Both the position numbers and the translations under genes were made by a program. 64,000 bases of DNA from Solirubrobacterales bacterium (GTDB taxonomy: Bacteria; Actinomycetota; Thermoleophilia; Solirubrobacterales; 70-9): the NCBI GenBank assembly GCA_020438395.1, contig JAGQUR010000018.1, forward strand, positions 42,186 to 106,185, written 5' to 3'. Positions 12,705-54,573 of this stretch are shown here, piece after piece; the first letter of the stretch is position 1, and each line of letters opens with the position of its first letter. The notes beneath the pieces are model-generated. The model was not told where the DNA came from, made no database searches, and saw only the letters and a list, made by a program, of their open reading frames with translations.

Positions 12705-12855
12705 ACCCCGATCAAGGTCCCGCCCGCCCGGGTTCTCAACTGCTCTGAAGCGAGATTGAAATCAAGTGCAAATAGCGCTCTCCATTTCAACCTCGCTTAC
12801 ACGGAGCAACGGGGCATCTGCTCTGTGGCTGCTGGAAGTAGAATCGTCGTCGCGT

Positions 12856-12931
<76 letters not shown>

Positions 12932-13153: not shown

Positions 13154-16015
13154 TTGGAAGTCGAGGTCACAGCCAAGAGGGTCGCTGAGATTCTCCTTAC
13201 GCCTGCCGGAAGGCCCCTTCCGGCAGGCGTACTCGAGGACCTCTCCCGTGCTGGAGATGAGCTCATGAGTTCCTTGGGTCGTCCGGGCAAGGGCGGCAGG
13301 AAGCCCAGACGTCCGGCCGGTAGTGAAACGTCGGCGATGGCCGAAGTCAGGAAGCAGCTCGGCGAGTCGGTAATCCGAAGTCACAAGGGAGCGCGTGTCG
13401 AGATTTGGGAGCTCGACGAAACTGGCACTACCGTCATCGGGGCGAGACTCTCCTCAGAAGACATCGGCAAGGGCCAGAACATCATGGGTCAGATCAAGGG
13501 CGGGTTCGATCTCTGCGGCGACCTGGGATTGAAGGTCAGGTATGTGGTGGCGGCGACAAGGATGTCGGGTGACCGCCCGCAAGCCGATCGCATGGACCTG
13601 GAGTTCATTCGAAAGTGGATTCACGCTGGCCACATCGACACCGTTGTCTACCGAGAGGTTGACCGGATGGGTCGACGGTCCGGCGTTCGAGACGAATTCT
13701 GGAGGTTCCTCGAAGAGACGGGGACGGAACTCTATTTCTCAACCAAGGGTCGCCCAACAGACTGGGACGAGGATGGTCTTACGCTTGCCGTTGAAGGGGG
13801 AATGGCCGACCATGAGCGCCGCAAGATCGTCAGGCGTACCGGTGGGGGCATCAGACAGAACCTGCTGGACGTTGGTTGGGGCTGGCCAGGATGCGTTCGT
13901 TTTGGATTCAAACGGATCGACGGCAACGCCATAGTAGTCGACCCAAAGCAATGGAAATTCGTTCAAATGGCATTCGAGAGCTACGCGAAAGTAGGCCCGA
14001 CCGGTCGTGGAAGCATAAGCCGGCTCAGGACCCACATGGTGAAGCAAGGCTGTCGGATCTCTGAAGAGGGACTTAGAAAAATGCTCAGAGATGAGATCTA
14101 TGTGACCGGCAAGTGGGGGGTCACGGTCCTGGACGAGTACTACGAAGGCAATCGAATCGAGATCCCGAACCCCATCTCAGCTGAACTCCAGGCCAGGAAC
14201 ATTGCTCTGTTGGAAAGCACAAAGGGCCGTAACAGTATTACGCCCTTCGGTACATACCTTCTGAACACGATTCCCGTCTATCACGGTAGGTGCATGCAGA
14301 TCGAAGTTGAGCGCAAGCAGCCTCGATCGGGGAAAATCAAGAGAGTGACCCCCCAACTGCGGGGGAGAGGGTACGGCGACGATAGACGTGCGGATCGTCC
14401 TCCGACCTACTCTCACTATCCGAAGACCCCCAAGTGTTGCTCAAGATATTCGGTTCCGGCGGAACTGCTTGAGAGGACCGTAGTCGACTCGTTGCTTTCC
14501 CTGGCTGAATCTCGGGAACTCCAGCTTGCCTACATCCAGAAGGCATCCGAGGACGACTCGTGGGACATTCAGATTGAAGACCCACAGGCGTTAGATCGGG
14601 AGATTCAGGCGCTGACCAGAGGCAGGCGGGAAATCGTTTCGGATTTCAACGAGGAAATCCGGGGAGGAGACACGTCTGCGAAGTTTCGCGTGGCCAAGCT
14701 CCTGGACGGTATTGACGAAGACATTGCGGCTCTGACTCGCCGGAAGGAAATCGCGCTGAGTTCAAGGCCTGGTCCCGAGGAGCGGGATTCGAAAAGTTTG
14801 CGTGCCGATCTGAGGAGATGCTTGACGGCCGGGCCAGGGGATCCCGATCACCTGCGTCAGAAAAAGGTCGCGTTGATTGAAGCCTTGGTCAGCAAAGTGG
14901 TGGTACACGATTCGGATCAGGGCGGTTACGAAGTCGAGATCTTCGGTCACCTGATTCCGCCCGGCAGCCGAATCGTCCCTGAGGAGATCTCAGGCCATTT
15001 CGAGAATGCGCTCGACGAGATTCACAAACCGGCCACTAAGTCGAAACTTAGTGGCCGGTTTGTGACTGGGTGCGGAGAGCAGACGAACCACACTCCAGCT
15101 TGGCGCTCTGAGCGGGTTTTCGTGCGCGAAGTGCCGTACGAATACACACTAGATTCCGTCAAGAAGTCGATCAGATTTGCTCATGAGAAACTCCCTCCAG
15201 GACGCATGTTCGGGCGTGGATCTTCACCGTATGAGCGGCTTCGGATCGAGCACCCGGGGCTCCTCAGGACCGCGCAGATCGCGATTGTGTGTCGGAAACG
15301 CGGCACTACAAGGGATCAGGTGATCCGGTCTGCCATCGATGTCGAGCCGGGGCTCCGCGAAGGCCGCTTTGGACCTCGATCAGTAGAAGAGGTTAGGACA
15401 ACAATCCGTTGGGCACTTGAGGACGGAATGACGTTGGATCCGGGGTGGGCAATGCGGTGGGACTCGTTCGCTCGAAAACTCCCCTACTTGGAAACCTACT
15501 CGTGGCTAGGTCAAATTCTCCGGGAGAACGGCACTTCGCTAAAGCGTGTGGCGTTTGAGATCAAAGCTAAGCGGAGGGTCGGGCAGCCTCGAATCGTCTC
15601 AGGCGTTCCTGCCGGCGACCCGCCCAAGACTGATCGGGCAATCCTCGTTCACGCGCTGTCGTCCGAGGAACTGGTGCCATTTGGGTACGACCGCGGCAAG
15701 CTGATCTTGCTGAGGCAGAAGAGGCGACTCTTTCGCCTGAAGATCGAGAAGGATCAGAACTTCTACTACCCCAAGTGGCAGTTCTCAACGGAGATGGGCC
15801 CTCGCTCGATCGTGCCTGAAATTCTCGCGATCCTCGGTGCATTGGGTCTTGACGAATGGGATCTGGAGGGCGTCATGTCCGAAAGCTCCGAGTTCGGAGG
15901 GAAAACTCGCAGCCTCAGGGAGCTAGTCGATGAGGAGGCCTCTGCCGAATGGTTGATAGCTCAAATCAAGTACAGACTTGAGGTCAGAAGGAGAAACAAG
16001 CTAGACGGCAGCTGA
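13154..16015 (+). CDS. Large serine recombinase with unusual 320-residue C-terminal extension
   Basis: Up to 953 residues (TTG 13154; ATG 13265 is an alternative). Resolvase-type catalytic domain: GARLSSED (nucleophile serine at about 100), VDRMGRRSG, then GGMADHERRKIVRRTGGG and the Recombinase domain; a degenerate zinc-ribbon region (GRCMQI...CCSRY), a coiled coil near 480-560, and the usual end VSKVVVHDSDQGGYEVEIFG at about 590-610. This would normally be the terminus. The frame continues through a perfect hairpin into an extension whose last 80 residues (YPKWQF...GALGLDEWDL...LRELVDEEASAEWLIA) resemble the toxin-binding domain of Xre/MbcA/ParS antitoxins. It directs site-specific DNA integration or excision; it sits beside the attL at tRNA-Pro. 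Confidence 0.87.
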   Translation: MEVEVTAKRVAEILLTPAGRPLPAGVLEDLSRAGDELMSSLGRPGKGGRKPRRPAGSETSAMAEVRKQLGESVIRSHKGARVEIWELDETGTTVIGARLSSEDIGKGQNIMGQIKGGFDLCGDLGLKVRYVVAATRMSGDRPQADRMDLEFIRKWIHAGHIDTVVYREVDRMGRRSGVRDEFWRFLEETGTELYFSTKGRPTDWDEDGLTLAVEGGMADHERRKIVRRTGGGIRQNLLDVGWGWPGCVRFGFKRIDGNAIVVDPKQWKFVQMAFESYAKVGPTGRGSISRLRTHMVKQGCRISEEGLRKMLRDEIYVTGKWGVTVLDEYYEGNRIEIPNPISAELQARNIALLESTKGRNSITPFGTYLLNTIPVYHGRCMQIEVERKQPRSGKIKRVTPQLRGRGYGDDRRADRPPTYSHYPKTPKCCSRYSVPAELLERTVVDSLLSLAESRELQLAYIQKASEDDSWDIQIEDPQALDREIQALTRGRREIVSDFNEEIRGGDTSAKFRVAKLLDGIDEDIAALTRRKEIALSSRPGPEERDSKSLRADLRRCLTAGPGDPDHLRQKKVALIEALVSKVVVHDSDQGGYEVEIFGHLIPPGSRIVPEEISGHFENALDEIHKPATKSKLSGRFVTGCGEQTNHTPAWRSERVFVREVPYEYTLDSVKKSIRFAHEKLPPGRMFGRGSSPYERLRIEHPGLLRTAQIAIVCRKRGTTRDQVIRSAIDVEPGLREGRFGPRSVEEVRTTIRWALEDGMTLDPGWAMRWDSFARKLPYLETYSWLGQILRENGTSLKRVAFEIKAKRRVGQPRIVSGVPAGDPPKTDRAILVHALSSEELVPFGYDRGKLILLRQKRRLFRLKIEKDQNFYYPKWQFSTEMGPRSIVPEILAILGALGLDEWDLEGVMSESSEFGGKTRSLRELVDEEASAEWLIAQIKYRLEVRRRNKLDGS
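13198..13231. repeat. Perfect 16-bp inverted repeat at the recombinase gene start
   Basis: TACGCCTGCCGGAAGG (13198-13213) and its exact reverse complement (13216-13231) are separated by two bases. It lies between the TTG start at 13154 and the ATG at 13265. If translation begins at the ATG, the palindrome is in the leader and could be an operator or a translation-blocking hairpin; if TTG is used, it is coding. Confidence 0.6.
15022..15065. repeat. 20-bp perfect hairpin inside the recombinase reading frame
   Basis: Arms 15022-15041 and 15046-15065 are exactly complementary around the 4-nt loop CGAA. This has the form of a strong intrinsic-terminator stem without a T run. It falls at codons 623-637, exactly where canonical large serine recombinases end, and the frame stays open through it. 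Confidence 0.8.
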
Positions 16016-22484: not shown

Positions 22485-25400
22485 TTGGCCGAGAGTGAAG
22501 TTGCTGTCCACCAAGACTGGTACTTGTTGCCCATGGCGACAGCACCATGGGCGGACGATACTCAAGTACCCCGATTCTGGTTACCAGTGGGGGAAAACGT
22601 TGAGATGGCGGATAACGGGTTCTTCCCAGACCCATATGGAGAATGGTCGGTCTATTACTCCGGTTCAGCCAAAGAACTCGAGCAACTAGGCAGCATCAGC
22701 TGCGCCGTCTTACTCGGTGAGCCTGGAACCGGCAAATCTACTGCACTTAGAGCCGATTACAAGCGAGTCAAGGCTACCGGTGCGAAGGCGCAATTCGTCC
22801 ATCTTGGCGAGACACAAGACGAATCATCCCTGCGCGCCCGGCTCTTCGAGTCGGACACGTTCAAGAGTTGGGGTGGAGGAGACGACCACCTCCATCTTTT
22901 TCTCGATTCACTCGACGAAGCGCGGCTACGAGTTGAAACGGTCGCCACCATGCTCATGAGTGGCCTTGAGAAGGCCGACTTTGGGCGCCTGTCGCTGAGG
23001 GTCGCATGCAGAATCTCCGAGCGCCACGTCCCACTCGAAGCATTCCTCAGGGCAGCATTCGGTGAAGAGAATTTTCGGGTGCTTTCGCTAGCCCCTCTCC
23101 GGAGGTTGGACGTGGAGTACCTGGCGGAACGCTGCGGGGTCGACCAGTCCGAGTTCGTATCTAGCTGCGTCAAGCACAGTCTCCAGCCGTTGGCAATCGT
23201 TCCGTTGACCTTGGGGATGCTGCTCAAGTCGACGAAAGCAAGCGGCGAGATTCCGCGTGACCGAACACAGGCATACGAACAGGGCCTACGCCTGCTTTGT
23301 TCTGAATCCAATCCAGATCGGGAGACGGGTACTACTGCTGGAGGCAACCTGTCGGAAGGAGAGCGGTTCAGCGTTGCGGTCCGAATCGCCGCAGCATTGA
23401 AGCTATCCGGCCGAAGCTCAATTACGACCAAGCCCGGCTTGGTCAACGCTGACTCGGTGGCGATGTCCGACCTCGCGGGAGGTTCGGAGCAAAACTATGC
23501 AGTTTCGGGGGAAGCTACCTTTCAAGTTGATGAAGCCGCAATCCGCGAAACCCTTGGATCCTCGCTATTTACGGTGGACTCAGAGGGAAGAAGCAGCGTT
23601 TCGCACGCCTACTTCGGAGACTTCCTTGCCGCAAGGTGGTTGAGTAGCTCGGGACTGGGCCTCGACCAGGTGCTCGATCTCCTGACGGTCTCGGACGCAG
23701 ACGACTCGGATCCCTCGGTCGTTCCCCAGCTTCTGGAAGTAGCTTCGTGGCTCAGTGGATTGTGGCCTCCGTTCCTTCGCTACGTCGCCGCTCACCATCC
23801 ACTTGTCGCTTTGCGGGGGAACCTGGACGGAGCTTCCGACTTGATGCGGGAACAGCTTGTATTCGCGCTAGTTCAGGCAGCTGGTGAGGACTACATCGAC
23901 CTCTACGACAGGCAGCTCCGAGCCGAGATGGAGGGACTCGAATATTCGGGTCTCGCGGCCCAACTCAGGCTAATTCTCCAAGACGAAACGCGGACGCAGA
24001 AAGCCAAGGAATGTGCCTGCGAGGTCGCGCGCGCCTGCAAGACGGAAGCTATCGAAGACGAACTCCTCAATCTGTCCCTGAATTCTGATGTGCCCGTGCC
24101 TCTGCGAGTTCAAGCAGTCCGGGCGCTTGAGGAGTTCGGCGGTGACAAGACTTTCAAGCGGCTGTTACCCATGGTCATCGAAAGTCAGCCTCTTGATACT
24201 GACGATGAGTTGAAGGGGACTGTCTTCAGAAGGGTTTGGCCCGGACTCATGTCTTGCGGTCAGGCGCTTAGGGCTCTCAATGAACCCAAGAATCGAAACC
24301 TGTTGGGGGCTTACAAGAGCTTCGTCTGGGGGGACTTCGTGAAGGGACTAGAGGATCGCGACCTTCCTGCCGCGCTGCGATGGGCAAGCGAACTTCCGTC
24401 GGCGCATGACCCCATGGACTCACTCGACGAGGTTCGAGAAGAGCTTCTGCTTAAGAGCTGGCCCATGGTGGGAAACAACGAGGCAATTACCAAAGGCTTC
24501 GCCAGGGTCGTGGTCACGCTCCTGAAAGGCCACGAGGATCTGCTCGACAACACGCGGCGCACCAAGCACCCTGAGGCGTTCACCGATGCGGACAAGAGGC
24601 GTGCGCTTATTCGCCAACTTGTGCCGGCCATCACCGAGCAGGAACTCGAGCCAGTCGTCGTGGCATTTATGTGTCATCCACCACTCGTGTGCGACGTTGA
24701 CTTCGATTGGTTGGTCGAGCGACTCAAATCAACCATCGGCAAGAAGAACGAACCTGGGTGGGCGAATCTGGTGGCTCTGGTCGGAAGAGGTACTGAGGAT
24801 CTGATGGTGCTTGAGCTCTGCGATCAATCGCCTGAACTAAAGACGATCGCTGGCGGAAGGTTTGCGGCCGTAGCAATCGACTCTGAGGAAGCGGAATCTG
24901 CCAGGAAAGTCTTGGAGATTTCAAAGGAACGCCAGCAACAAGACGAAAAGGAAAACTCTCTTCGGGACGAGATGTTGTGTGCCGCCAAGTCGGCGATTGC
25001 GGCGATGTCCAAGTCCAAACCGGAAGATTTTTGGCATGCCCTCTACCACCTTGAGCACATTCCGCCCCAGTCCCCCCGAACCTACGCAGATTCGGATCTG
25101 ACGGAATTTCCCGGTTGGTCGCTGCTGACCGCAGACGAACAGACGAAGCTAGGTGAATTTGCTCCGCGATACCTGAAACTGATCAATGTCCCGCCGAAAG
25201 AGTGGGTGCCCACCCGGCAGATCCGTTGGGATGTCTGGGCCGGTTACAGGGCGCTGCGCCTAGCCCACGACTGTGTTCCGGATCAGCTGGCGAAATTGCC
25301 GAAGAAATACTGGGTTAGGTGGCTTCCGATCGTTCTCGACTGGCCGAGAGAAGGTGAGAGTGAATCCGACTTCAACACGTGGCTGCTGGGGGAACTGGCA

Positions 25401-26750
25401 ATGAGATGCCCGGCCGAGTTGGCCGAAGGCATCGACGCGCAGATTCTCCGCGACCGCGACCAAGGCTTCGTAAACGACGCTCGACTGGAGGCTGCTTGGT
25501 GCGAAGCAGTTGAAGAAAGAGTTCTTCGTCGAGCAAAAGACCGACGAATCAGCACTGAGAAGCGACGTGCTCTCGTCGAGGTTCTTGTGCGGCGTAAATC
25601 CGAAGCTGGCCTCGGCTACGCCTATCGACTCGTCGTTCCTGATGCGGTCAGAAGTGGTGGTGCGCGTCGAAAACTCGCCACTATGACGGCAGTCGTCTTG
25701 GCCGTCAACGACAGTGCCAAGGCTTGGCCGCGGGTCCACGAGTTGATGGGTCGCTTTCCAAGACTTGCAAAGGACATCATCCGAGAATTCTCAGTTCACC
25801 GCGAATCTATCTGGATCTCGAAACTCGACGCAAGCCAAGCCGGAGAGCTATTCGAGACAGCGGAGAAACACTTCCCCATAGCCGAAGATCCTAGCCTTGA
25901 TGATCAACGAGGTAACTACCCAGTCAGGGCTCAGATTGCTGACTGGCGAAACAACATTGTTCGGATACTTCAGGCCATGGCATCAGCCGACTCGGTTCGG
26001 GTCCTCTCTGAGATCTCCGCGAGGCGACCCAGGATGCTGGGATTCAAGAAGACGCTACGGGAAGCACAGCAAGCGTTACTCGCCCAATCGTGGCTCCCAC
26101 CGTCCCCAGCGGGAATAGTTCAGATGAGCGGGGATCAAGCCCGACGGTGGGTTCGCTCGGACAGCGATCTTCGTGATGTCGTGGTGGCATCTCTCGACCG
26201 GGCTCAGGCAGCGCTCCAGGGAGTGCACCCGAGGGTTGGTTCACTCTGGAATACCGACCCTGTGACACCCAAGCCCGAAAACCACTTGTCGGATTGGCTT
26301 CGCGACTTTCTTCGCGAAGACCTCAAGGGCAAGGGGGTATTGGTCGACCGAGAGACCGAAGTCAGGTCAGGACCGAAGAACAAGATGGGCGAGGCGGTAG
26401 ATATCCAGGTGAACGCTGTTGCTGGAGACCGAGTGGAGGGAGCCCCGATCGTTTCGCTGATGATCGAGGTAAAAGGTTGTTGGCACAGGAACGTTCTCAC
26501 CGAAATCGAGACGAAGCTCGCTGACCGGTATCTCGATCCGAAACGGCGATACGGGCTCTACGTCGTGGGTTGCTTCGCTTCCGAGCAATGGGATCCGTCT
26601 GACTATAGGAAGAAGGCGTGCTCCCGGTTTGACCGCGCCGAACTGTCCAAGAAGCTAGACGTGGAGCCGGCCAGGATCAACCATGAGAAGGAAGTGCGGA
26701 TTACCCCGCTAGTACTTGATTGCTCTTTGGCGAAGCCGCCACTCGCTTAG
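22485..26750 (+). CDS. STAND-like NTPase with C-terminal PD-(D/E)xK-like domain
   Basis: Up to 1421 residues (TTG 22485; ATG 22533 possible). A P-loop at 78-86 (GEPGTGKST) and a Walker B LHLFLDSLDEAR at about 136-147 with the DxxDE arrangement place it near NACHT/STAND NTPases. A winged-helix-like part with RTQAYEQGLRLLC follows, then a very long helical region suggestive of HEAT/TPR-like sensor repeats. The last 150 residues contain GEAVDIQV (Asp about 1306) and LMIEVKG (Glu-x-Lys about 1327), a plausible restriction-endonuclease-fold active site. By analogy with Avs-type sensors it may recognise an invader component and trigger nuclease activity; in described Avs proteins the nuclease is usually N-terminal, so the order here is noteworthy. 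Single-gene unit. Confidence 0.7.
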   Translation: MAESEVAVHQDWYLLPMATAPWADDTQVPRFWLPVGENVEMADNGFFPDPYGEWSVYYSGSAKELEQLGSISCAVLLGEPGTGKSTALRADYKRVKATGAKAQFVHLGETQDESSLRARLFESDTFKSWGGGDDHLHLFLDSLDEARLRVETVATMLMSGLEKADFGRLSLRVACRISERHVPLEAFLRAAFGEENFRVLSLAPLRRLDVEYLAERCGVDQSEFVSSCVKHSLQPLAIVPLTLGMLLKSTKASGEIPRDRTQAYEQGLRLLCSESNPDRETGTTAGGNLSEGERFSVAVRIAAALKLSGRSSITTKPGLVNADSVAMSDLAGGSEQNYAVSGEATFQVDEAAIRETLGSSLFTVDSEGRSSVSHAYFGDFLAARWLSSSGLGLDQVLDLLTVSDADDSDPSVVPQLLEVASWLSGLWPPFLRYVAAHHPLVALRGNLDGASDLMREQLVFALVQAAGEDYIDLYDRQLRAEMEGLEYSGLAAQLRLILQDETRTQKAKECACEVARACKTEAIEDELLNLSLNSDVPVPLRVQAVRALEEFGGDKTFKRLLPMVIESQPLDTDDELKGTVFRRVWPGLMSCGQALRALNEPKNRNLLGAYKSFVWGDFVKGLEDRDLPAALRWASELPSAHDPMDSLDEVREELLLKSWPMVGNNEAITKGFARVVVTLLKGHEDLLDNTRRTKHPEAFTDADKRRALIRQLVPAITEQELEPVVVAFMCHPPLVCDVDFDWLVERLKSTIGKKNEPGWANLVALVGRGTEDLMVLELCDQSPELKTIAGGRFAAVAIDSEEAESARKVLEISKERQQQDEKENSLRDEMLCAAKSAIAAMSKSKPEDFWHALYHLEHIPPQSPRTYADSDLTEFPGWSLLTADEQTKLGEFAPRYLKLINVPPKEWVPTRQIRWDVWAGYRALRLAHDCVPDQLAKLPKKYWVRWLPIVLDWPREGESESDFNTWLLGELAMRCPAELAEGIDAQILRDRDQGFVNDARLEAAWCEAVEERVLRRAKDRRISTEKRRALVEVLVRRKSEAGLGYAYRLVVPDAVRSGGARRKLATMTAVVLAVNDSAKAWPRVHELMGRFPRLAKDIIREFSVHRESIWISKLDASQAGELFETAEKHFPIAEDPSLDDQRGNYPVRAQIADWRNNIVRILQAMASADSVRVLSEISARRPRMLGFKKTLREAQQALLAQSWLPPSPAGIVQMSGDQARRWVRSDSDLRDVVVASLDRAQAALQGVHPRVGSLWNTDPVTPKPENHLSDWLRDFLREDLKGKGVLVDRETEVRSGPKNKMGEAVDIQVNAVAGDRVEGAPIVSLMIEVKGCWHRNVLTEIETKLADRYLDPKRRYGLYVVGCFASEQWDPSDYRKKACSRFDRAELSKKLDVEPARINHEKEVRITPLVLDCSLAKPPLA

Positions 26751-27139
26751 CGTGGCCCAGTCCAGAATCACCGGTCTGTCGATCGTGAATCTTTATTTCG
26801 CAGTAGCTGCGGACAGTCAGAGATTGGGAGATTTCAAATTGAGAACTGATCGGCGGCGATCCGAGGACGAGTAGGACCTCCAAGGAATAGGAATCTGAGC
26901 AAATAGACCGAAAGAACGTAGGGTCGGACAGTCGATTCTTCTTGAAGCCCAAGAATCGTTCTACCCGGGCTTGTCAGATTGTCCTGGCTTCGCCGACGCT
27001 TCAACCGTCGAGTTCGTGGCTAGGTCGGACTAAATGTTGGGGAACTGGATTCGGATCTCCAAGGTAGGCTTGCCCGGTTGGGAGAAGCTCACGACGTGTA
27101 CGCCGTCCAGTCGTCGAAGCCGCCAATGAATTGCGAGCC
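26751..27139. other. Intergenic region before the methylase-ATPase operon
   Basis: 389 bp with no convincing gene. It is more AT-rich than the coding regions and contains one simple hairpin, CGATTCTT (26933-26940) with AAGAATCG (26951-26958), which may terminate the upstream gene. The promoter of the downstream five-gene run should lie in 26960-27130. Confidence 0.4.
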
Positions 27140-29827
27140 ATGGAACAGAAGTCACCAAAGCAAATAGCAGCTGAGATCTTCGACCTGAACCGCGGGCGGT
27201 TGGGTGCTGAGTTCGGACTCCTGACGGCTTTGGTTCTGGTCTACGCGTTTTCGAAGGACCGACACGTCCAAGAAGTGCTCGTTACCAATCCGGATCGGAT
27301 CCGTTTGGCGATGAAGAACACAGAGGACTACCTCCTGGCGGACAGCCTTCCCGCGATCGATGGAGAGTTGGTGGTCCTGCCAGACTCGAACCTAGCTCGG
27401 GTCGGAGAGTTGGTCATTTCTCAATCTCCGGTGAACCAGACGGAGATTTTCGAGGAGCTACTTAGGCTCCACGAGTCAAACGCCGGGCGGGCCGCTGGTG
27501 AATACCGGACCATGGGTTGGGTTGCCCAGCTTGTCTCTGAGATCGTGAGTCTGGATCCAGGGCAGACCGCAATTGACCCGGCCTGTGGATTCGGCGACAT
27601 GATGATTGAGCTCGCGAAAGTGGATGTCGAACCGTACGGAGCAGACATCTCGCCAGAAGCGCGAAACGTGTCTAGGCTACGTCTTGCGATACACGGTGTA
27701 GGCGAACACGTCGAGAACGCGGATTTCTTGAAGTCTTGGCAGCAAGTGCGTGGTGAACACCACTCGATAGTGATGTCGCCTCCTTGGGGTGTGCGGCCAA
27801 GCAAATCCGACGAGATTGAGTTACCTAGCTGGGTGACGACCAAGTCTCCGCTCGACCTCGCTTGGCTGGCGATGGGAACCGAAGCGTTACCTGCGAACGG
27901 TCAGCTCGTGGCTCACCTTCCGGCTGGAGTGGTGGAGCGTTCCCGCGACGTCGATGCCGTGCTTCAATTGGTTACCCAGGGTCGGCTGGAAGCGGTTATC
28001 AACCTTGGAAGTGGGTCATCGCCGGCCACCGCGATCAATTCGGTGATCGTCGTCGTGCGACCTGTCGGCACGAGTGACACCGTTCTCATGGTTGACGCTT
28101 CAGCCTTGGGGACTCGCGGAAAAAAGGGAAGCACGTCTCTGGATCATTCCGAGATACGGGAAATCACCAACTGCCTCCGTGACTTTCGTGAGAGTGATTC
28201 GGTCGTCAAGAGCGACTTTCACCGACCCGGATTCGCACGGGGAGTTTCGCTTCAGCAGATACTTGGTAGCACGCCGCTGTCTCTCAGCCCAAGCCGTTTT
28301 GTGGATGTCTCAGAAAAGGGCCATGAGATTCCCGAGCCTTCTCAGACTCTTCTGACGGAACTCAGATTGGAGGGCTTCAAACCGTTCCGTAAGCCTACGT
28401 CGGTTCGGCTCGCCCCGATCACCGTGCTTTTCGGCCAGAACAGCGCAGGAAAGAGCAGCTTGGTTCAAGCGCTGATGATGTTGAAGCAGAGCGTCAAAGC
28501 GAACCATTTTGTTGCTGACGGAGAAGTGGTGCAGCTTGGAAGCTTCGGAACTTTGGTCAATGGCCATGACCTGGATCGTCCAGTGCGCCTGGGGGTCTCC
28601 TTCGGGGTTCCGGTTGATTGGCACACGCCTGGGTTGGTGCTGAACCCAGGTTGGCTGAGAAGTATCGACTTCGAGTTTCGAGGGTCCGTGGGCTCTGAGG
28701 TCCGTCTTGAAAGGGTCATTGTCGATCTTGGTGAAGGGCACGTGGCGAGTTTTGATTTCGATCCGAGAGCTGACGGCTTGGCCATGACTGCAGAGGATGC
28801 GGTGAACCTCGTTCGGCACGTGGCGGAAGGAGAATCACGATGGCGGATTGCCGCTCCAACGGCAAAGCGCACGGAAACGGGACCAGCATCGTTCCGAAAG
28901 CAGCGAGTCAGTGAAGTAAAACGAGTGCTCAGCCGCATCGGCGATTATTTGCCGGTCAAAGTCGAGGGTTTGGTTCCAGCTTCAGCAGATCTCGCCATTT
29001 CGAACTACGGCAAAGGGAAAGCGGCCAACGATGGAGAACTCGCGTCGAGTTCAATCGATGGTTCGCTTGCCCTTCCAGCCAAGACGGGTGAAGAGCTGGG
29101 TCGCCTTCTTTCGGAGATGAAGTACCTTGGCCCGCTTCGTAGCGCTCCGGAACGGGTCTATCCGAGGCGTACTGGCGACGGAGGAATAGGAAATTCAGGC
29201 GAGAATCTGGCCATCTACTTATTTGAGCATCGGTCTGAACTGGACGAGATAAATAGATGGCTGGATCGGCTTGAGATGCCCTATCGACTGGACGTTGTGT
29301 CGCTCGACGCTGGGGTGAAAGGTCTTCCGGTTGGTGACCTGGTCGCGTTGATTCTCACCGACCATAGGTCTGGGGCGGTTGTAAGCCCAGCCGACGTTGG
29401 GTTTGGCATAAGTCAGGTGCTCCCGATAGTGACTCAACTTCTAGCGAACCGGCAGACCGTGATTGCTGTCGAGCAGCCCGAGATTCATCTTCATCCGGGT
29501 CTGCAGGCGCGATTCGCTGAGCTTCTGATTGACGCGACTCGACCCGAGAGCGCATCCAACCAGGTGATTGTCGAGACTCACAGCGAGCACTTGATGTTGA
29601 GGCTCCAACGGCGGGTTAGGGAGGGCGAGCTGTCCCCAGATGAAGTCTCGGTTCTCTACGTGGACTGGAACGAAGAGGAAGCTTGCGCGGAGGTGATTCA
29701 CATTCCGCTGGATGAAGACGGATCCTTTACTCGAGCGTGGCCGAACGGGTTCTTCGCCGAGAGGTTTGACGAGATTTTCTCCGGGGGCCTTGATCTGCCC
29801 GAACTTCCGGACGAGACTGCACTGTGA
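27140..29827 (+). CDS. N6-adenine DNA methylase fused to DUF3696-like AAA ATPase
   Basis: 895 residues from ATG 27140 (TTG three codons earlier is possible). Residues 1-370 look like a type I/IIG N6-methyltransferase: motif I DPACGFGDMM at about 146 and catalytic motif SPPW at about 213, within the allowed (D/N/S)PP(Y/F/W) set. Residues 400-895 are a complete SMC/OLD-like ATPase: GFKPFRKPTSVRLAPITVLF, Walker A GQNSAGKSS at about 431, VEQPEIHLHP near 777 as Walker B, and VETHSEHL near 808. Such a methylase-ATPase fusion is unusual. It overlaps the next gene by GTGA and lies on the same strand directly before hsdR-S-M, suggesting that ATPase action and DNA methylation status are coupled in defence. 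Confidence 0.8.
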   Translation: MEQKSPKQIAAEIFDLNRGRLGAEFGLLTALVLVYAFSKDRHVQEVLVTNPDRIRLAMKNTEDYLLADSLPAIDGELVVLPDSNLARVGELVISQSPVNQTEIFEELLRLHESNAGRAAGEYRTMGWVAQLVSEIVSLDPGQTAIDPACGFGDMMIELAKVDVEPYGADISPEARNVSRLRLAIHGVGEHVENADFLKSWQQVRGEHHSIVMSPPWGVRPSKSDEIELPSWVTTKSPLDLAWLAMGTEALPANGQLVAHLPAGVVERSRDVDAVLQLVTQGRLEAVINLGSGSSPATAINSVIVVVRPVGTSDTVLMVDASALGTRGKKGSTSLDHSEIREITNCLRDFRESDSVVKSDFHRPGFARGVSLQQILGSTPLSLSPSRFVDVSEKGHEIPEPSQTLLTELRLEGFKPFRKPTSVRLAPITVLFGQNSAGKSSLVQALMMLKQSVKANHFVADGEVVQLGSFGTLVNGHDLDRPVRLGVSFGVPVDWHTPGLVLNPGWLRSIDFEFRGSVGSEVRLERVIVDLGEGHVASFDFDPRADGLAMTAEDAVNLVRHVAEGESRWRIAAPTAKRTETGPASFRKQRVSEVKRVLSRIGDYLPVKVEGLVPASADLAISNYGKGKAANDGELASSSIDGSLALPAKTGEELGRLLSEMKYLGPLRSAPERVYPRRTGDGGIGNSGENLAIYLFEHRSELDEINRWLDRLEMPYRLDVVSLDAGVKGLPVGDLVALILTDHRSGAVVSPADVGFGISQVLPIVTQLLANRQTVIAVEQPEIHLHPGLQARFAELLIDATRPESASNQVIVETHSEHLMLRLQRRVREGELSPDEVSVLYVDWNEEEACAEVIHIPLDEDGSFTRAWPNGFFAERFDEIFSGGLDLPELPDETAL

Positions 29828-30873
29828 TTGCGAAAGTCTCCGTTTCTCCTTCGGTACTCGGTCCGGTTCCACCCGATGCTTCAAAGGCGGAGAAAGCGTT
29901 TCTCAAGAGAAACCTTCAAGCACTCGCAAAATCTTTGGTTCAGCACGGTTGCCTGGTCGCTGCCGACAAGGATGATGCGGTCGCGCTACTCCAGGCAGCA
30001 AAGGAACTGGAGCAAACCGCCCCCGGGCCTTCGAAAGCCTGGTTGGAGGCCTTGATCATGTTGAAGGACTGCGATCGGTGGTATGTGACTAGCCCCAACC
30101 GACCTCCGGTGTCGGGGGCAACGGAAGTGGGATCCCTGAGGGACAACTGGAAGGGTGCAGTTCGGGTCGTGGTAGTAGATCAGGACCAATCCGAAGCGAT
30201 GGGAATCTTCGATTGCGATACCAGATCCCAGCCCGAGATTTCTCCGATGATGGTGGCACGTGATTCCGCGACGTTTGATCGTCTCTCAAAGCTGGCTGAG
30301 GCGGGTGTATGGAAGGCGTCGCAATCCAGAGAGGATTTTTGGGCTCGGGTCCTTCGTCCCCTTGCACAGCGAAGCAAATGTATTGAGATCTGCGACAGAT
30401 TCATGCTTCGCGGCATGGTCGAGAGGGCGGAGGGTGCTCGTCAGTCAGAGGACGATGACGCTCTTTCCTGGCTACTGAAAAGGATTGACGAAGACGGATT
30501 CGACGGTACGACTGTGGCGGTCTATACGAGCCTCGGAGAAAATGTGAGGATCAAGGGAGAATCGATTCAGGCTCCGGGCAATCCTGAGTTGGTCAAAGAA
30601 CTCATAGATGAGTACTTCCAGGTCGGCGGCGGAAAAATCAAGATGCTTGAGGCCCACGCGGTCTTCTGGAAGAAGATGAAGTTCGCCGATCGTCCACACG
30701 ACAGACACATCTCATTCTCCTGCGGTGCGGACATTGGGCTTGAACGAGGACTGGACAGCTTCGACTCGGAGTCGGTCGAAGCCAGTTCTGGAATTGCGTG
30801 GACATATGGCCACAGCCAAGAGACCAAGAGCAAGAACGCGCAGGAACGAAGGGCAATAGAGTCGGCTTCCTGA
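29824..30873 (+). CDS. ATPase partner with MIT_C-like (PLD-fold) C-terminal domain
   Basis: 349 residues starting at GTG 29824 inside the stop of the fusion ATPase, so the two are translationally coupled. The first 170 residues contain a helical region and a beta segment (RVVVVDQDQSEAMGIFDCD) that I do not recognise. The C-terminal part has RFMLRGMVERAEG, VAVYTS, then KKMKFADRPHDRHISF and LERGLDSFD. This H-D-R-x-I...G-x-GLD pattern resembles the MITD1 C-terminal phospholipase-D-like domain found in some prokaryotic conflict proteins. It may be the effector gated by the ATPase. Family assignment is by eye; no catalytic claim is made. Confidence 0.6.
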   Translation: MIAKVSVSPSVLGPVPPDASKAEKAFLKRNLQALAKSLVQHGCLVAADKDDAVALLQAAKELEQTAPGPSKAWLEALIMLKDCDRWYVTSPNRPPVSGATEVGSLRDNWKGAVRVVVVDQDQSEAMGIFDCDTRSQPEISPMMVARDSATFDRLSKLAEAGVWKASQSREDFWARVLRPLAQRSKCIEICDRFMLRGMVERAEGARQSEDDDALSWLLKRIDEDGFDGTTVAVYTSLGENVRIKGESIQAPGNPELVKELIDEYFQVGGGKIKMLEAHAVFWKKMKFADRPHDRHISFSCGADIGLERGLDSFDSESVEASSGIAWTYGHSQETKSKNAQERRAIESAS

Positions 30874-30913: not shown

Positions 30914-33724
30914 ATGAGCGAAACCCGTGAGCCAGACTATGACCTGAACCCTGAACAAAGGGCTCGGCGCCGGATTGATGCTCTCTTGAGTGATGCGGGC
31001 TGGGATCTTCAGGACTTCAAGAAGATGGACTTGTCCAAGCCGTACGTTGCAGTGCGCGAGTACCAACTCCCGGGCGGTCCGGTGGACTATTTGCTTTACG
31101 TGGACAGAAAGGCGATCGGCACAGTTGAGGCCAAGAAGGAGGGGGAGACTCTGCGGCCCGTCGAATGGCAAGCCAGCCGGTACGCGCAAGCTTTCAGCGA
31201 CAAGGCAGAGAAGGAGGCGATCCCGAACTTCGGCTTTCCACTGCCAGTCAGCTACATCTCTACGGGTACGGAGACGCTATTCGAGAACCGAACTGAACCG
31301 AACCACCGGCCCCGGGAAGTCTTTGCCTTCCATCGCGGCGAATTCCTGTCTGAGGTTGTTCGGATGGGATCGATCCGCTCCGGAGTGTTCGAGCTTCCGC
31401 ATCTTGCCAAACAAGACCTTCGTGATTGCCAAGTGGATGCGATCATCGGACTGGAAGACTCCCTTCGAGCGAACAGGCCTCGTGCGCTGGTTGAGATGGC
31501 CACAGGTGGAGGAAAGACGATCGCGGCAATCGCGCACGCGTACCGGCTACTTCGATGGGCTGAAGCCAAACGCATCTTGTTCCTGGTTGATAGAAGAAAT
31601 CTAGGTATTCAGGCCAAGAGAGACTTTGAGAACTGGGTGACACCGGATGATGGTCGGAAACTGAGCGAACTCTTCCCGGTTCACCTCCTGACCTCGAACA
31701 CGATCCCGGAATCGGCAAGCGTGGTCATCACGACCATTCAGCGACTCCGGTCAATGCTGAAGGGCGAGGAAGCCTTCGACGGGGAGAACGAAGACTTCTC
31801 CGGGTGGGAGCTCGCTGGCTTGGCTTCTGAACCCACACCAATTCAGTATCGGCCCGAGGTTCCGATTGAGACCTTTGACTACATCTTCATCGACGAATGC
31901 CATCGATCCATCTACGGTCCGATGGGGCAGGTGCTCGACTATTTTGATGCCTTCCAGATCGGCCTGACGGCAACGCCGTCCAGGGTCACTTACGGATACT
32001 TCTCCAAGAACGTCCTCGGCGAGGGGGAGACCGAACCGAACGTTGTCTCCCAGTATCCCTACGAAGAATCTGTGCTTGACGGAGTCAACGTGGGCTACGT
32101 CGTCTACCGGATCCGTACACGGATCACCGAAGGTGGCGGACATCTAGAAGCCGGTGAGTGGGTTGACCTCAGAGACAAGAACACTCGGGCTCGAGACCCG
32201 CACCAACTCGACGAGGATTTTGATTTCACTGAAAAGGATCTGAACGCAGCGATCGTTGTCAAAGATCAGATCCGCACGATCGTCCGTGCGTTCAAGGATG
32301 CAATGCCGATGCTCTTCCCGGGCCGAACGACAGTGCCGAAGACGGCAGTCTTCTGCAAGGACGAGAGCCACGCGGAGGATGTTCTGGAGATAGTCCGCGA
32401 GGAGTTTGGCCAAGGGTCAGAGTTCGCAAAGAAAATCACCTACAAGACCGAAGGATCCTCCGAACAGGCCATTCAGGACTTCCGCACGGACCCTAGATTC
32501 CGCATCGCTGTGACGGTGGACCAGATCTCAACTGGCACTGACATCAAGTCGATCGAATGCCTGCTGTTTCTCCGCAAGGTCAAGAGCCGTCTCCTCTTTG
32601 AACAGATGAGAGGAAGAGGAGTCCGAACCATAGATCCCAACGACCTTGCCGCGGTTACTCCAGACGCCGGCGCTAAGGACCAGTTCGTGCTCGTAGATGC
32701 TGTCGGCGTTACCGATGACGAAACCGTCTGGGCGGTTTCGCCACCTTTGGACCGTGAACCATCAGTGCCGCTGGAGAAGCTGCTTCAGTCTCTGGCTCAG
32801 GGGTCCACGGACGAAGCACTCCTGAAAAGCATCTCGGCGCGATTGCTCCGGCTGGACAAGCGAATGGAGGATCCCGACCGCGAGGCGATTACCCAGCAGC
32901 TAGACGGTCAATCACTCGTGGAACTCGCGCGAACTCTGGTCGACGCAACCAACCCGGACGAGTGGCATGAGCGAGCGGCACATGATCACGGAGGCGAACC
33001 AAGCGAAGAGCAAATCCAGCTAGCGAGACAGGACCTGGCGCTGACGGCGACATCCCCTCTCTTGTCGGCCGAGACTCGGGAAGCGATTCTCGCGATCAAC
33101 GTGAAAACCCACCAGGTGATCGACCGGCAAAGTCAGGACGAGGTTCTGTCGGCTGACCTGATCACCGAGGACATTGCAGAATCCACGATTGAAACCTGGG
33201 AAGAGTTCGTGCGCGACCACAAGGACGAATACCTGGCTTTGGCGATTCATTATTCCCAACCCCAAACAAGAAGACTCAGTCTCTCTGACGTTCGTGAACT
33301 AGCAAAAGCGATCAGCCTCCCGCCGAGAAGCCTCACCCCGGAAAGGATCTGGGGAGCGTACGAGCGACTCGACAAGAACAGAGTCAAGGGATCAGGCTTC
33401 AAGAACCTGGTTGACCTCGTCTCTCTAGTGCGGTTCACGGCAGAGCAAAACGACGACCTGACCCCACACGCCGACGCCGTCAGACTACGTTACAGCCTCT
33501 GGCTGACAGAGCAAGAAAGCGACGGACGGACGTTCACCGCTGAACAACGTCGCTGGTTGGACATGTTCTGCCATCAGATCGCGACGTCACTCGAAGTCAG
33601 GAAAGACGACTTCGACGATCCCCCGTTCGCTCAGGAAGGCGGCATCTTCCACGCTTCCGAGATATTTGGCAGCGATCTGGACGATTTGATCGAGGAACTC
33701 AACCGGGAGCTAGCGATCGTATGA
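30914..33724 (+). CDS. hsdR: Type I restriction endonuclease, R subunit
   Basis: 936 residues. The N-terminal nuclease domain shows VDYLLYVDRK followed by GTVEAKKEG (Asp and Glu-x-Lys of the PD-(D/E)xK site, residues 56-75). A superfamily 2 helicase follows: motif I MATGGGKT near 196, motif II IDECHRS (DECH box), LTATPS, and later motifs STGTDIKSIECLLFLR and EQMRGRGVR. A C-terminal HsdR/EcoEI-like helical region completes it. It uses ATP to translocate DNA and cut unmethylated DNA with HsdM and HsdS. Overlaps hsdS by ATGA. All main motifs are intact. Confidence 0.94.
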   Translation: MSETREPDYDLNPEQRARRRIDALLSDAGWDLQDFKKMDLSKPYVAVREYQLPGGPVDYLLYVDRKAIGTVEAKKEGETLRPVEWQASRYAQAFSDKAEKEAIPNFGFPLPVSYISTGTETLFENRTEPNHRPREVFAFHRGEFLSEVVRMGSIRSGVFELPHLAKQDLRDCQVDAIIGLEDSLRANRPRALVEMATGGGKTIAAIAHAYRLLRWAEAKRILFLVDRRNLGIQAKRDFENWVTPDDGRKLSELFPVHLLTSNTIPESASVVITTIQRLRSMLKGEEAFDGENEDFSGWELAGLASEPTPIQYRPEVPIETFDYIFIDECHRSIYGPMGQVLDYFDAFQIGLTATPSRVTYGYFSKNVLGEGETEPNVVSQYPYEESVLDGVNVGYVVYRIRTRITEGGGHLEAGEWVDLRDKNTRARDPHQLDEDFDFTEKDLNAAIVVKDQIRTIVRAFKDAMPMLFPGRTTVPKTAVFCKDESHAEDVLEIVREEFGQGSEFAKKITYKTEGSSEQAIQDFRTDPRFRIAVTVDQISTGTDIKSIECLLFLRKVKSRLLFEQMRGRGVRTIDPNDLAAVTPDAGAKDQFVLVDAVGVTDDETVWAVSPPLDREPSVPLEKLLQSLAQGSTDEALLKSISARLLRLDKRMEDPDREAITQQLDGQSLVELARTLVDATNPDEWHERAAHDHGGEPSEEQIQLARQDLALTATSPLLSAETREAILAINVKTHQVIDRQSQDEVLSADLITEDIAESTIETWEEFVRDHKDEYLALAIHYSQPQTRRLSLSDVRELAKAISLPPRSLTPERIWGAYERLDKNRVKGSGFKNLVDLVSLVRFTAEQNDDLTPHADAVRLRYSLWLTEQESDGRTFTAEQRRWLDMFCHQIATSLEVRKDDFDDPPFAQEGGIFHASEIFGSDLDDLIEELNRELAIV

Positions 33725-34953
33725 GCGTCACAGTTGAGGCTCCACTAGGCTGGTCGTGGCGAACGATCGGGGAACTCGGCGAATACCACAACGGCAGGGC
33801 GTTCAAGAAGGATGAGTGGGAACTAGAGGGGCGGCCGATTATCCGCATCCAGAATCTCACCGATCCAAGCAAACCGTTCAATTACTTCAGTGGTAAAGCA
33901 GATGCTCGACACGAGGTGTCGGATGGTGACCTCCTCATCTCGTGGGCAGCAACTCTGGGGGTCTTCCGCTGGAGTGGTGGAGATGCGGTCTTGAACCAGC
34001 ATATTTTCAAAGTCCAGAGTTCGCATGACAACGACTTTCTCTACTGGCTGCTGAAAGCGGCCGTAGGTGAGATGTACGGTAGAAGCCAGGGATCCGGAAT
34101 GGTGCATATCCGCCGCGGCGAGTTGAAAAGTCTTCCGGTCCTTGTGCCTGACTCAAGAGACCTTGAGCATCAAGTGGTTTCAGTGATCGAGGCCGAGTTC
34201 AGCAGGATCGACTCGATCGAGTCCGAGCTTGCCGAGGTTGACCGACTCTCAGGTCAGTTCCGCGCGGCGGTCCTACGGGACGCGTTCATTGGCCGTCTGG
34301 CAGCTGAAGCGCACGGGGCGGGCCGTGGCCCGAGTGTAGTTCCTCAGGCTTGGGAAGTTCGGCAGCTTGGCGATATCGCCGATGTGCGGTCCGGTATCAC
34401 CAAGAATTCAAAGCTCGCAACTGGGGACGAGGTCCCGTACATGTCCACGGCCAATGTGCAGGCCGGATACCTCCGGCTTGACAATGTGAAGACGATTCTC
34501 GCCAGCAAGGAGCAGCAGGAGAAGCACCGGCTGGAGGTTGGAGACGTGCTCGTGCTTGAGGGTGGAGACCCCGACAAGGTCGGTCGTGGCTGGGTCTGGA
34601 ACGGAGAGATCGAAGGCTGTCTCCACCAGAATCACGTTTTTGCGGTCAGGCCAGATTCGCGAGTTCTCCTGCCGGAGTATCTGGCCTGCTACGTGAATGC
34701 GCCGCAGGCGCGAGTCGCATTCCTGGCTCGCGCAAAGCAGACAACGGGTATCGCGTCAATCAACAAGACGCAACTCAGGGAGTTATCGATACCCCTGCCC
34801 GGAGTTGACAAGCAGTTTGCAATAGTGGAGGCGATCAAGGCCGCCAACTCGGCGATTGAGGTTGCTGCAGACGACGCTCGGGTCGCGCGGGAGGGCCTCA
34901 AGAAGGCGCGGTCGTCTGTTCTCCACCAGGCCTTTACTGGTGGGCTCGTCTGA
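33721..34953 (+). CDS. hsdS: Type I restriction-modification specificity subunit
   Basis: 410 residues with two target-recognition domains, each opening with a W-x-x-x-x-L/I-G-E/D pattern: WSWRTIGELGEYHNG at the start and WEVRQLGDIADVRSG near 217. Each is followed by a conserved helical spacer (SELAEVDRLSGQFRAAVLRDAF after the first, ARVAREGLKKARSSVLHQAF after the second). Determines the bipartite recognition sequence for methylation and cleavage. Starts inside the hsdR stop. A 91-bp gap with a strong GGGAGGA site precedes hsdM. Confidence 0.93.
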   Translation: MSVTVEAPLGWSWRTIGELGEYHNGRAFKKDEWELEGRPIIRIQNLTDPSKPFNYFSGKADARHEVSDGDLLISWAATLGVFRWSGGDAVLNQHIFKVQSSHDNDFLYWLLKAAVGEMYGRSQGSGMVHIRRGELKSLPVLVPDSRDLEHQVVSVIEAEFSRIDSIESELAEVDRLSGQFRAAVLRDAFIGRLAAEAHGAGRGPSVVPQAWEVRQLGDIADVRSGITKNSKLATGDEVPYMSTANVQAGYLRLDNVKTILASKEQQEKHRLEVGDVLVLEGGDPDKVGRGWVWNGEIEGCLHQNHVFAVRPDSRVLLPEYLACYVNAPQARVAFLARAKQTTGIASINKTQLRELSIPLPGVDKQFAIVEAIKAANSAIEVAADDARVAREGLKKARSSVLHQAFTGGLV

Positions 34954-35044
34954 CGTGTCCTCGAGGACCTAGAGCAATGCCAGACTTGCGACATCGAACC
35001 CGTCGAAGAGTGAAACGCGACGTGAGCCCCGTGCGGGAGGAACT

Positions 35045-36589
35045 ATGACTAGAACAATTTCGGCCGAATCCAAAGCCCTGACCCAAAAGCTCTGGAGTTA
35101 CTGCAATGTTCTTCGTGACGACGGTTTGAGCTATGGCGACTACCTGGAGCAACTCACGTACCTCTTGTTTCTCAAGATGGCCCATGAGCGAACCCAGCCT
35201 CCGCTAAGCGAAGAGTCAAAAATACCCGAGGGTGTTGATTGGCCATCGCTGGAGGCTTTGGCGGGTCCGGACCTCGAAGCTCACTACGTGAAGGTTTTGG
35301 CCACGTTAGGAAGTGAGCCGGGTCTTCTCGGTCTGATCTTTCGTAAGGCCCAGAACCGGATCTCAGATCCGGCCAAGCTCCGTCACCTAATTGTGGATCT
35401 CATCGGCGAGGAGACTTGGTCAGGGCTTGACGCGGACCTAAAGGGCGACTTCTACGAGGACCTTCTTGAGCGGACCGCGTCGGACACCAAAGCGGGAGCC
35501 GGTCAATATTTCACTCCGCGTTCGGTGATCAAGGCGATGGTCGATTGTGTCCAGCCCGAACCCGGGCAGACGATGAGCGATCCTGCCTGTGGGACCGGCG
35601 GATTCCTTCTGGCTTTCTATGACTACGTGATCGACAACTTTGAGTTAGACCGCGATCAGAAGCGGCAGTTGGCTGACGACGACATCCACGGCAATGAACT
35701 CGTGGACAACACCGCCCGCCTTTGCGCGATGAACTTGTTTCTTCACGGGATCGGGCACCTGTCTAGGGACGAAACACCTGCAATCACAGTCTCAGATGCA
35801 CTCGCAGTCGAACCGAACAACAAAGTGGACGTCGTTCTTGCGAATCCTCCATTCGGTAAGCATTCTTCCACGGTCATTGACTCTGAGATTCTCGTAGACG
35901 AGGAGGGGAACTCAAGAGCTCGCCAGACGAAGGGCGACCTCGCCATCTCGCGGCCCGACTTCTGGGTTTCCACTTCGAACAAGCAGCTGAATTTCGTCCA
36001 GCACATCCGTTCGATGTTGAAGATTGGCGGAACCGCAGCGGTGGTAGTGCCTGACAACGTTCTCTTCGAAGGGTCAAGCTCAAACTCCGCGGGCGGGAAA
36101 CTCCGGGAGCGTCTGCTGTATGAGTGCAACCTCCACACAATCCTTCGACTTCCAACGGGAATCTTCTACGCGCAGGGAGTCAAAGCGAACGTGATCTTTT
36201 TCGATCGCCACGCCGGTTCGGAAGAGGCCGCAACGAAGGAAACCTGGGTTTACGACTTCCGGACGAATCAGCACTTCACTCTCAAGACGAAGGCCATGCG
36301 TCGAGAACATCTCGATGGGTTCGTGGAAGCTTTCAAACCAGGGCAGCGACTCTCTGCGCGAGAGGAAGTTGCGGGGTTCAAGCGCTACAAATTTGAAGAG
36401 ATCGCCGAACGTCCCGGATACAACCTCGATCTTTGGGCCGACATAGCGGACGAATCGATCGAAGATCCGGCGCTGCTGCCAGCACCAGCCGTGATCGCCG
36501 AAGAAATCACCGAGCGGCTCGCCGCTGCGCTCGACGCATCGAAGGAGTTGGCATCGAGCCTTGCTTCGCGGGACTCATTTGGCGAGTAG
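35045..36589 (+). CDS. hsdM: Type I restriction-modification methylase subunit
   Basis: 514 residues. An HsdM N-terminal helical domain (LTQKLWSYCNVLRDDGLSYGDYLEQ) is followed by an N6-adenine methyltransferase: AGQYFTPRSVIKAMVD, motif I DPACGTGGFL at about 179 and catalytic NPPF at about 267. Methylates adenines in the HsdS target, protecting host DNA. The operon order R-S-M is less common than R-M-S or M-S-R. Start ATG 35045 has GGGAGGA seven bases upstream. Confidence 0.95.
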   Translation: MTRTISAESKALTQKLWSYCNVLRDDGLSYGDYLEQLTYLLFLKMAHERTQPPLSEESKIPEGVDWPSLEALAGPDLEAHYVKVLATLGSEPGLLGLIFRKAQNRISDPAKLRHLIVDLIGEETWSGLDADLKGDFYEDLLERTASDTKAGAGQYFTPRSVIKAMVDCVQPEPGQTMSDPACGTGGFLLAFYDYVIDNFELDRDQKRQLADDDIHGNELVDNTARLCAMNLFLHGIGHLSRDETPAITVSDALAVEPNNKVDVVLANPPFGKHSSTVIDSEILVDEEGNSRARQTKGDLAISRPDFWVSTSNKQLNFVQHIRSMLKIGGTAAVVVPDNVLFEGSSSNSAGGKLRERLLYECNLHTILRLPTGIFYAQGVKANVIFFDRHAGSEEAATKETWVYDFRTNQHFTLKTKAMRREHLDGFVEAFKPGQRLSAREEVAGFKRYKFEEIAERPGYNLDLWADIADESIEDPALLPAPAVIAEEITERLAAALDASKELASSLASRDSFGE

Positions 36590-38661: not shown

Positions 38662-38693
38662 ACCATTGAGAAATTTTCTTGAGAAAGGAATTC

Positions 38694-54513: not shown

Positions 54514-54573
54514 CCCGGGGTAGTCACGGAGCACTCAGGAACGCTGGTGTTCCCAACTACCCCGGGAGATTTG

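Follow-up and report, generated by a model that had tools for sequence, protein, structure and literature searches.

The window analyzed here is a 64,000-nucleotide stretch from a Solirubrobacterales bacterium (GenBank assembly GCA_020438395.1, contig JAGQUR010000018.1, positions 42,186 to 106,185 of the forward strand). It contains an open reading frame (ORF) that spans exactly 22485-26750 on the + strand, with a TTG start, 1421 codons and no internal stops. The encoded protein is a divergent, apparently stand-alone relative of the antiphage protein EruA, with a predicted NACHT nucleoside triphosphatase (NTPase) core, a long helical solenoid and, at its C-terminus, a predicted nuclease domain that appears to be replaced by other modules in some of its relatives. 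The features of the gene are as follows.

22485..26750, +: NACHT - HEAT-like solenoid - PD-(D/E)xK protein of 1421 residues (intact ORF; relatives, many of them matching end to end)
22668..23654, +: predicted NACHT NTPase with helical and winged-helix domains, residues ~62-390 (AlphaFold2 model; VIA-align matches)
22716..22739, +: Walker A, GEPGTGKS, residues 78-85 (G78, E79, P80, G81, G83 and K84 invariant in 34 members)
22896..22919, +: Walker B, LFLDSLDE, residues 138-145 (D141, D144 and E145 invariant in 34 members)
23595..23642, +: SVSHAYFGDFLAARWL, residues 371-386, with invariant H374 (81 of 81 rows)
23661..26219, +: alpha-solenoid, HEAT-like, presumed sensor, residues ~393-1245 (model, HEAT_2 and alphaRep matches)
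26223..26747, +: predicted PD-(D/E)xK nuclease domain, residues ~1247-1421 (AlphaFold2 model, VIA-align, catalytic triad in 60 of 60 members)
26400..26402, +: D1306, predicted metal ligand (60 of 60 members)
26466..26474, +: E1328-V-K1330, predicted catalytic ExK (60 of 60 members)
26514..26516, +: K1344 (AAG), the sole non-Gln residue at a site where the other 59 of 60 members have Gln (nuclease-domain alignment)

Domain organization of the protein

The start codon is unsure: an alternative ATG lies at M17 (22533), and family conservation sets in at R30-W32. Residues 1-21 have a predicted local distance difference test (pLDDT) score below 50 in the AlphaFold2 model. When the protein alone was searched against Pfam, PADLOC and PDB sequences, nothing was found above noise. 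Residues 1-1190 were modeled with AlphaFold2 from 31 sequences, using an alignment (A8) from which L072 and L086 were excluded by choice, with a mean pLDDT of 81.9. VIA-align matched the core of this model to NLRC4 (Z 18.1, root-mean-square deviation 5.8, 408 residues aligned, model residues 12-545), followed by NLRP7 (Z 17.7), NOD2 (Z 16.1) and many further NLRs; these NLR matches (Z 16-18) exceed the first non-NLR rows (~11-12), and lower down stand 6mfv, a STAND protein with a TPR sensor (Z 11.8), and AVAST5 (Z 10.8).

Walker A (in the context LLGEPGTGKST, G78-S85), a D-x-x-D-E Walker B (in the context LHLFLDSLDE) and the predicted NACHT fold, the features by which NACHT/STAND proteins are recognized, were thus all found in this protein. 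The segment SVSHAYFGDFLAARWL resembles the FxHxSFQEFLAA motif of NACHT proteins. The Pfam NACHT model itself matches 6 of 34 diverse members of the family and gives no match to the window protein, whose NTPase module is a NACHT domain by predicted fold. The P-loop and DxxDE motif that a preliminary description had placed near the N-terminus are these two Walker motifs, and its label "STAND-like" is narrowed, by predicted fold, to NACHT.

Beyond residue 393 the model, which extends to 1190, contains no strand of three or more residues. HEAT_2 was detected in 7 of the 34 members, and the solenoid profile matches designed alphaRep chains. This HEAT-like solenoid is presumed to be the sensor; it is helical, as had been described, and spans ~850 residues (393-1245) instead of the ~1,000 proposed.

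Residues 1150-1421 were modeled with AlphaFold2 from 33 sequences (pLDDT 88.3). The predicted model contains an alpha-beta-beta-beta-alpha-beta core (in model numbering, helix 116-130, strands 136-145, 154-163 and 173-182, helix 191-200, strand 207-214) with D...ExK on the central strands; E1290, D1306 and E1328/K1330 (model residues 141, 157 and 179/181) sit on the three successive strands. The top VIA-align matches are BamHI, OkrAI and BstYI (Z 8.7), Can2 (8.4), and BglII and EcoT38I (8.2), with McrBC (7.7) and LlaBIII (6.9) further down and FokI and EcoRV lower than McrBC. We take BamHI, OkrAI, BstYI, Can2, BglII, EcoT38I, McrBC, FokI and EcoRV all to have the PD-(D/E)xK fold.

The protein contains 9 occurrences of the pattern D-x(10-30)-[DE]-x-K, compared with a mean of 13.9 in 200 shuffles; at this chance level the motif alone proves nothing and independent support is needed. 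That the D...ExK site is real follows from its conservation: E1265, E1290, D1306, E1328, K1330 and Y1349 are the same in all 60 members compared, among them the window protein. These members were chosen by a C-terminal domain matching the nuclease profile over at least 120 positions, leaving out three near-duplicate loci and partial domains. The same profile found nothing above noise among PDB sequences. Taken with the model, the conservation supports the assignment of the C-terminal domain as a PD-(D/E)xK nuclease, a predicted DNase, in agreement with the nuclease-like domain and the D...ExK site at ~1306-1329 suggested earlier. The AAG codon of K1344 is one base from CAG (Gln).

Relatives and their C-terminal domains

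The genome loci compared here are the best 80 of at least 109 confirmed tblastn matches to the window protein, and 15 plasmid records also carry relatives, five of them covering at least 80% of the query. In all, 91 loci were analyzed (three of them near-duplicates), from at least 17 named phyla, with 13 loci having no phylum assigned; the one archaeal locus among them, L041, has a reading frame that stops early. Relatives are ~23-36% identical to the window protein and many align end to end. Of 395 other genomes drawn from the window's phylum, 5 contain relatives (one a marginal case), and no relative was found in the phage collection or in IMG/VR.

All 34 diverse members match NCBIfam NF058535, "NACHT domain-containing antiphage protein EruA", and 33 match NF058534, antiphage HyoA (both at E 0.01). 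The window protein matches both over its NACHT core and solenoid, EruA with E 1.8e-57 and HyoA with E 3e-34 (best stretch at residues 194-606), far under both cut-offs. An EruA-profile search of the window's phylum matched 7 of 396 genomes, its own included, and none exceeded the cut-off. Among six proteins scored singly against EruA, L090 from Pseudomonas sediminis (1178 bits) and L096 (1000.2 bits) pass the cut-off, and both carry core, solenoid and C-terminal nuclease profiles in the same order as the window protein. The unusual domain order is therefore already present within a named antiphage family: the NACHT - solenoid - nuclease architecture is not unique to the window protein and is shared with NCBIfam EruA proteins. 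The antiphage role is taken here from the family name alone, as no paper on antiphage EruA or HyoA, or on C-terminal exchange, was found in partial coverage of the literature. The name EruA is reportedly also used for a SlyA-type regulator of E. coli; a search of E. coli DNA with L090 found nothing.

A nuclease match is absent from 29 of the 94 family ORFs at the 91 loci, and of these ORFs 12 are incomplete or broken, while 17 extend to the end of the solenoid. One of the 17, L052, has a nuclease remnant behind a stop and is therefore a decayed copy, not an exchange; apart from this remnant, no split-off nuclease was found behind the 14 relatives searched, a set without L014, L040, L076 and L080. 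The remaining 16 carry other or no recognized ends. GT4-conflict domains occupy the C-terminus of L010 (E 1.1e-113) and L014 (3.6e-110), and CHAT domains that of L040, L080 (frame broken further upstream) and L076 (together with a second NACHT). A strongly hydrophobic C-terminal segment is found in L035, L045 and L055 (mean hydropathy 1.9-2.5 by our own calculation, made without a transmembrane predictor). Coil-like (judged by eye) or short tails are found in L037, L044, L046 and L038, and an EAD2-like tail in L073 (E 0.011, under the Pfam cut-off), with which its sister L078 is grouped. Nothing was recognized at the C-terminus of L068, and L062 has no C-terminal domain and a TIR domain at its N-terminus (TIR_2, E 2.4e-17). 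CHAT, TIR and GT4 are all known, or predicted, to act as effectors in biological conflicts. Because the genome loci were selected as the top tblastn matches to the window protein, the proportions of C-terminal types are not to be read as prevalences.

In a tree of the NACHT part, nine changes of the nuclease label are needed, at least six of them forced by starred branches. It is a "quick" tree with long branches, which excludes near-duplicates (L033, L065, L084), loci with a split core match (L026, L029) and cut, short or broken ones (L013, L030, L041, L042, L043, L050, L063, L066, L069, L070, L075, L080, L081, L088, L089, L091). N-terminal extensions of more than 60 residues occur in 4 of its 71 rows; in L056 (L056:5936-6998, Verrucomicrobiota), 354 residues without a Pfam match precede the NACHT core and the C-terminal nuclease is kept.

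Seven pairs of relatives were compared in hundred-residue blocks, with residues numbered as in the first protein of each pair. L024 (nuclease) and L044 (coil-like) share 48-74% identity in 11 of the 12 blocks up to residue 1200 and 31% in the other, versus 5-20% past L024 residue 1240; L024 behaves in the same way with L037 (45-68% in 11 of 12 blocks). For L040 (CHAT) and L035 (hydrophobic), identity is 53-68% in 11 of 12 blocks and falls to 10-25% past 1200. In these clearest pairs, where identity collapses at ~residue 1200-1245, the pattern looks like that of terminal-effector exchange on a fixed switch-sensor. A conserved gene of 134-138 codons, PIN-toxin-like as judged by eye, lies 267-294 bases downstream of the family gene in L024, L035, L045, L055 and L069, and accompanies cyanobacterial members that differ in their C-terminal end.

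At nine EruA-type loci (L018, L082, L088, L089, L092, L093, L094, L096, L097) the NACHT gene shares an upstream gene, whose distance from it ranges from an overlap of 61 bases to a gap of 8. The L018 copy (L018:6199-7449), the one assigned with Pfam, is AAA_14-DUF4143, and genes of this type may be a second component of EruA-type loci. L090, over the EruA cut-off, lies outside this partner cluster, as does the window gene.

A candidate antiphage switch and its alternatives

We consider it rather likely that the window protein is a standalone NACHT antiphage switch of an EruA-like superfamily with a swappable C-terminal effector, here a DNase. The basis of this reading in sequence and prediction is the domain order, the folds, the conserved active sites, the modular C-terminus and a variable region adjoining restriction genes. 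At rest the NACHT core would be autoinhibited, as its structural match to NLRC4 in the autoinhibited state and to NOD2 with bound ADP suggests. The HEAT-like solenoid would then bind an invader-derived or host cue, and nucleotide exchange would lead to oligomerization, following NLR and Avs precedent. The oligomer would gather the C-terminal PD-(D/E)xK domains for DNA cleavage, and the infected cell would cease to support the phage, probably by abortive infection. The weakest link of this mechanism is the trigger, and the next whether solenoid or nuclease itself meets the invader.

Several observations weigh against this reading. Defense, trigger, oligomer and substrate are each a matter of inference. 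With 195.4 bits, the protein stays below the EruA cut-off of 1000, and by that rule it is therefore an EruA homolog and not EruA; for HyoA the values are 117.9 bits and 1200. Its end branch in the NACHT tree is 1.45, compared with a median of 0.63, and it falls in no starred set. The Z values of 7-9 for the nuclease model are middling when taken singly, according to VIA-align's own note. Foldseek gave no nuclease match for this model at E <1e-3, its first row being an acetyl-CoA carboxylase domain (E 1.7e-3) and its second a BbvCI subunit (4.7e-3). The PD-(D/E)xK fold is supported despite the middling Z values, because the VIA-align list consists mostly of one fold and the active-site residues are placed as that fold requires. 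At K1344 the window protein is the only one of the 60 nuclease members without the motif Gln. The sharp C-terminal drop is confined to three of the seven pairs; in the others (L024 with L046, L035 and L040, and L036 with L062) similarity has already fallen within the solenoid, so that the drop is less abrupt and tells less. A PADLOC tally around the relatives, at a threshold of 1e-10, covered 122 of 145 selected flanking genes (620 ORFs in all), which matched 207 models with no control set; PDC-S01 accounts for 8 of the 122, and the 25 models listed include PARIS AriA (four genes), argonaute, SIR2-type, MADS, Mokosh, type IV restriction and DRT2. Lastly, the window gene has no upstream AAA_14-DUF4143-type gene like that of the nine EruA-type loci, and so a partner could be missing, although L090 has no such gene either.

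Of the alternatives, the one that survives best, itself unlikely, is that of a restriction enzyme driven by nucleoside triphosphate, in which the nuclease would meet foreign DNA directly, the NACHT core would serve as motor or gate, in the manner of McrBC or type ISP enzymes, and no solenoid would sense protein. The nuclease model does resemble the nuclease domains of McrBC (Z 7.7) and LlaBIII (Z 6.9), and the window gene is followed by a methyltransferase-ATPase fusion and type I restriction genes. However, the NTPase is NACHT-like with NLR-type surrounding domains, not a translocase, Pfam found no DNA-recognition or methylase domain in the protein, and CHAT or GT4 domains at the same position are hard to see as DNA sensors.

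A shade less probable is a C-terminal domain that is accessory or target-binding, with the toxic step coming from the NACHT-solenoid oligomer or a partner gene. The gene overlapping or adjoining the NACHT gene at the nine EruA-type loci, and the two relatives that end without a recognized C-terminal domain (L068, L038), would agree with this. Against it stand an active site that does not vary among 60 of 60 members, a nearest upstream neighbor of the window gene that is encoded on the opposite strand, and the absence of L090 from the partner cluster. A regulatory STAND protein without a defense role, or a decaying copy, to which K1344 and the longish branch might point, is quite improbable, given 1421 open codons, the catalytic residues kept, a variable region with restriction genes and no DNA-binding regulatory domain found; the lack of a match to such a domain also led us to reject the transcription-regulator form.

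As a candidate DNase-armed switch, the window protein can be compared with known systems. It shares with EruA homology along the NACHT core and solenoid, and L090 and L096 end in the same PD-(D/E)xK domain; it shares with Avs4/AVAST a STAND core and a long helical sensor, and Avs4 (8dgf) was the first Foldseek row for the residue 1-1190 model (E 2.8e-8, TM-score 0.16-0.19). It differs from Avs4 in that its effector is C-terminal (~1247-1421) and none is seen N-terminally, with no Pfam domain before the NACHT core, which starts at ~residue 62. Because there is no room for an effector before this core, the order is reversed relative to Avs, from whose N-terminal effectors the preliminary description had distinguished it, and relative to bNACHT25. 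The clade 6 bacterial NACHT proteins bNACHT25 and bNACHT32 likewise combine NACHT with a PD-(D/E)XK effector, but theirs is N-terminal (PMC12169576). Avs membership was set aside on this domain order, with weak support from PADLOC, which we take to include Avs models: the window protein gave one row (PDC-M12B, E 0.055) and none at 0.01, and five other models, none of them Avs, touch some of the 34 members, both searches being made without a positive control for Avs. Of the two outcomes that the preliminary description named as refuting it, a predicted fold lacking a PD-(D/E)xK core and placement in a named Avs class, neither was obtained in the fold prediction or in these PADLOC searches. Since PADLOC-DB 2.0.0 (2023) has no convincing match to the 34 members, surveys made with it probably miss the family.

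The broader point worth pursuing is the apparent exchange of effectors at the C-terminal end of an NLR-like scaffold. The usual NLR/Avs layout is effector, switch, sensor. Here the effector lies beyond the presumed sensor, and the model of N-terminal effectors gathered at an oligomer hub is therefore not simply transferable; the solenoid would have to fold back toward the hub, or else the effectors would pair up at the rim. The chances seem to us about even that these proteins form a widespread reversed NLR class, bacterial and perhaps archaeal, of NACHT, HEAT-like sensor and freely exchanged C-terminal effector (DNase, GT4, CHAT, membrane segment, adaptor-like tail, or TIR moved to the N-terminus), of which the window protein would be a deep EruA-like branch acting without a partner gene. 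Close natural pairs that differ mainly past ~1200 (L024/L044; L040/L035) would combine the same sensor with a different killing module and allow a direct chimera test. GT4 has been reported fused C-terminally to STAND modules (PMC8195603), an arrangement like that of L010 and L014 with GT4-conflict; the exchange of nuclease, CHAT and hydrophobic tail on one scaffold is not described in the accessible part of that work (PMC8195603).

Genomic neighborhood

The upstream neighbor of the window gene is an InlB-repeat gene on the opposite strand. Downstream, after 380 bases, come the methyltransferase-ATPase fusion, a small gene and the type I restriction cassette.

27131-29827, +: 898-residue protein with an N6-adenine methyltransferase (residues 105-395) and an AAA_21-type ATPase; PADLOC NsnB (9e-56)
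29824-30873: small gene overlapping the fusion gene by 4 bases; weak PLD-like MIT_C match under the cut-off
30914-36589, +: type I restriction cassette in the order HsdR (EcoEI type), HsdS, HsdM, starting 4.2 kb downstream of the window gene

These genes lie in a variable, mostly low-GC (guanine plus cytosine) region at tRNA-Pro(tgg), spanning 12855-58980, with the tRNA gene itself at 12855-12930. None of the window ORFs between tRNA-Pro and 58983 is matched in full within 38 kb of the same-genus genome G347, and two of them give partial matches; in G347 the genes equivalent to those at 58983 and 61728 come 2.5 kb after tRNA-Pro. The NACHT gene has no match anywhere in G347. GC content is 0.56-0.59 at 14-40 kb and 48-52 kb, reaches 0.60-0.65 between 40 and 48 kb, and is back at ~0.65 from 54 kb onward. 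A different contig of G347 carries a 65% identical match to the gene at 54547. The far edge of the region is unsure (52-59 kb), and from the GC profile and the match of the 54547 gene the foreign part may end near 52 kb. A search of the window for a second copy of the tRNA-Pro 3' end gave none.

Further genes of the region are a 953-residue protein at 13154-16015 (+) with a serine resolvase domain (residues 97-235), beginning 224 bases past tRNA-Pro, and a tyrosine integrase gene at 38679-40034. A CHAT protein (E 4.6e-36, with a weak TPR match) is encoded at 49300-51888 (+), and directly upstream of it lies a 186-residue ORF without a Pfam family.

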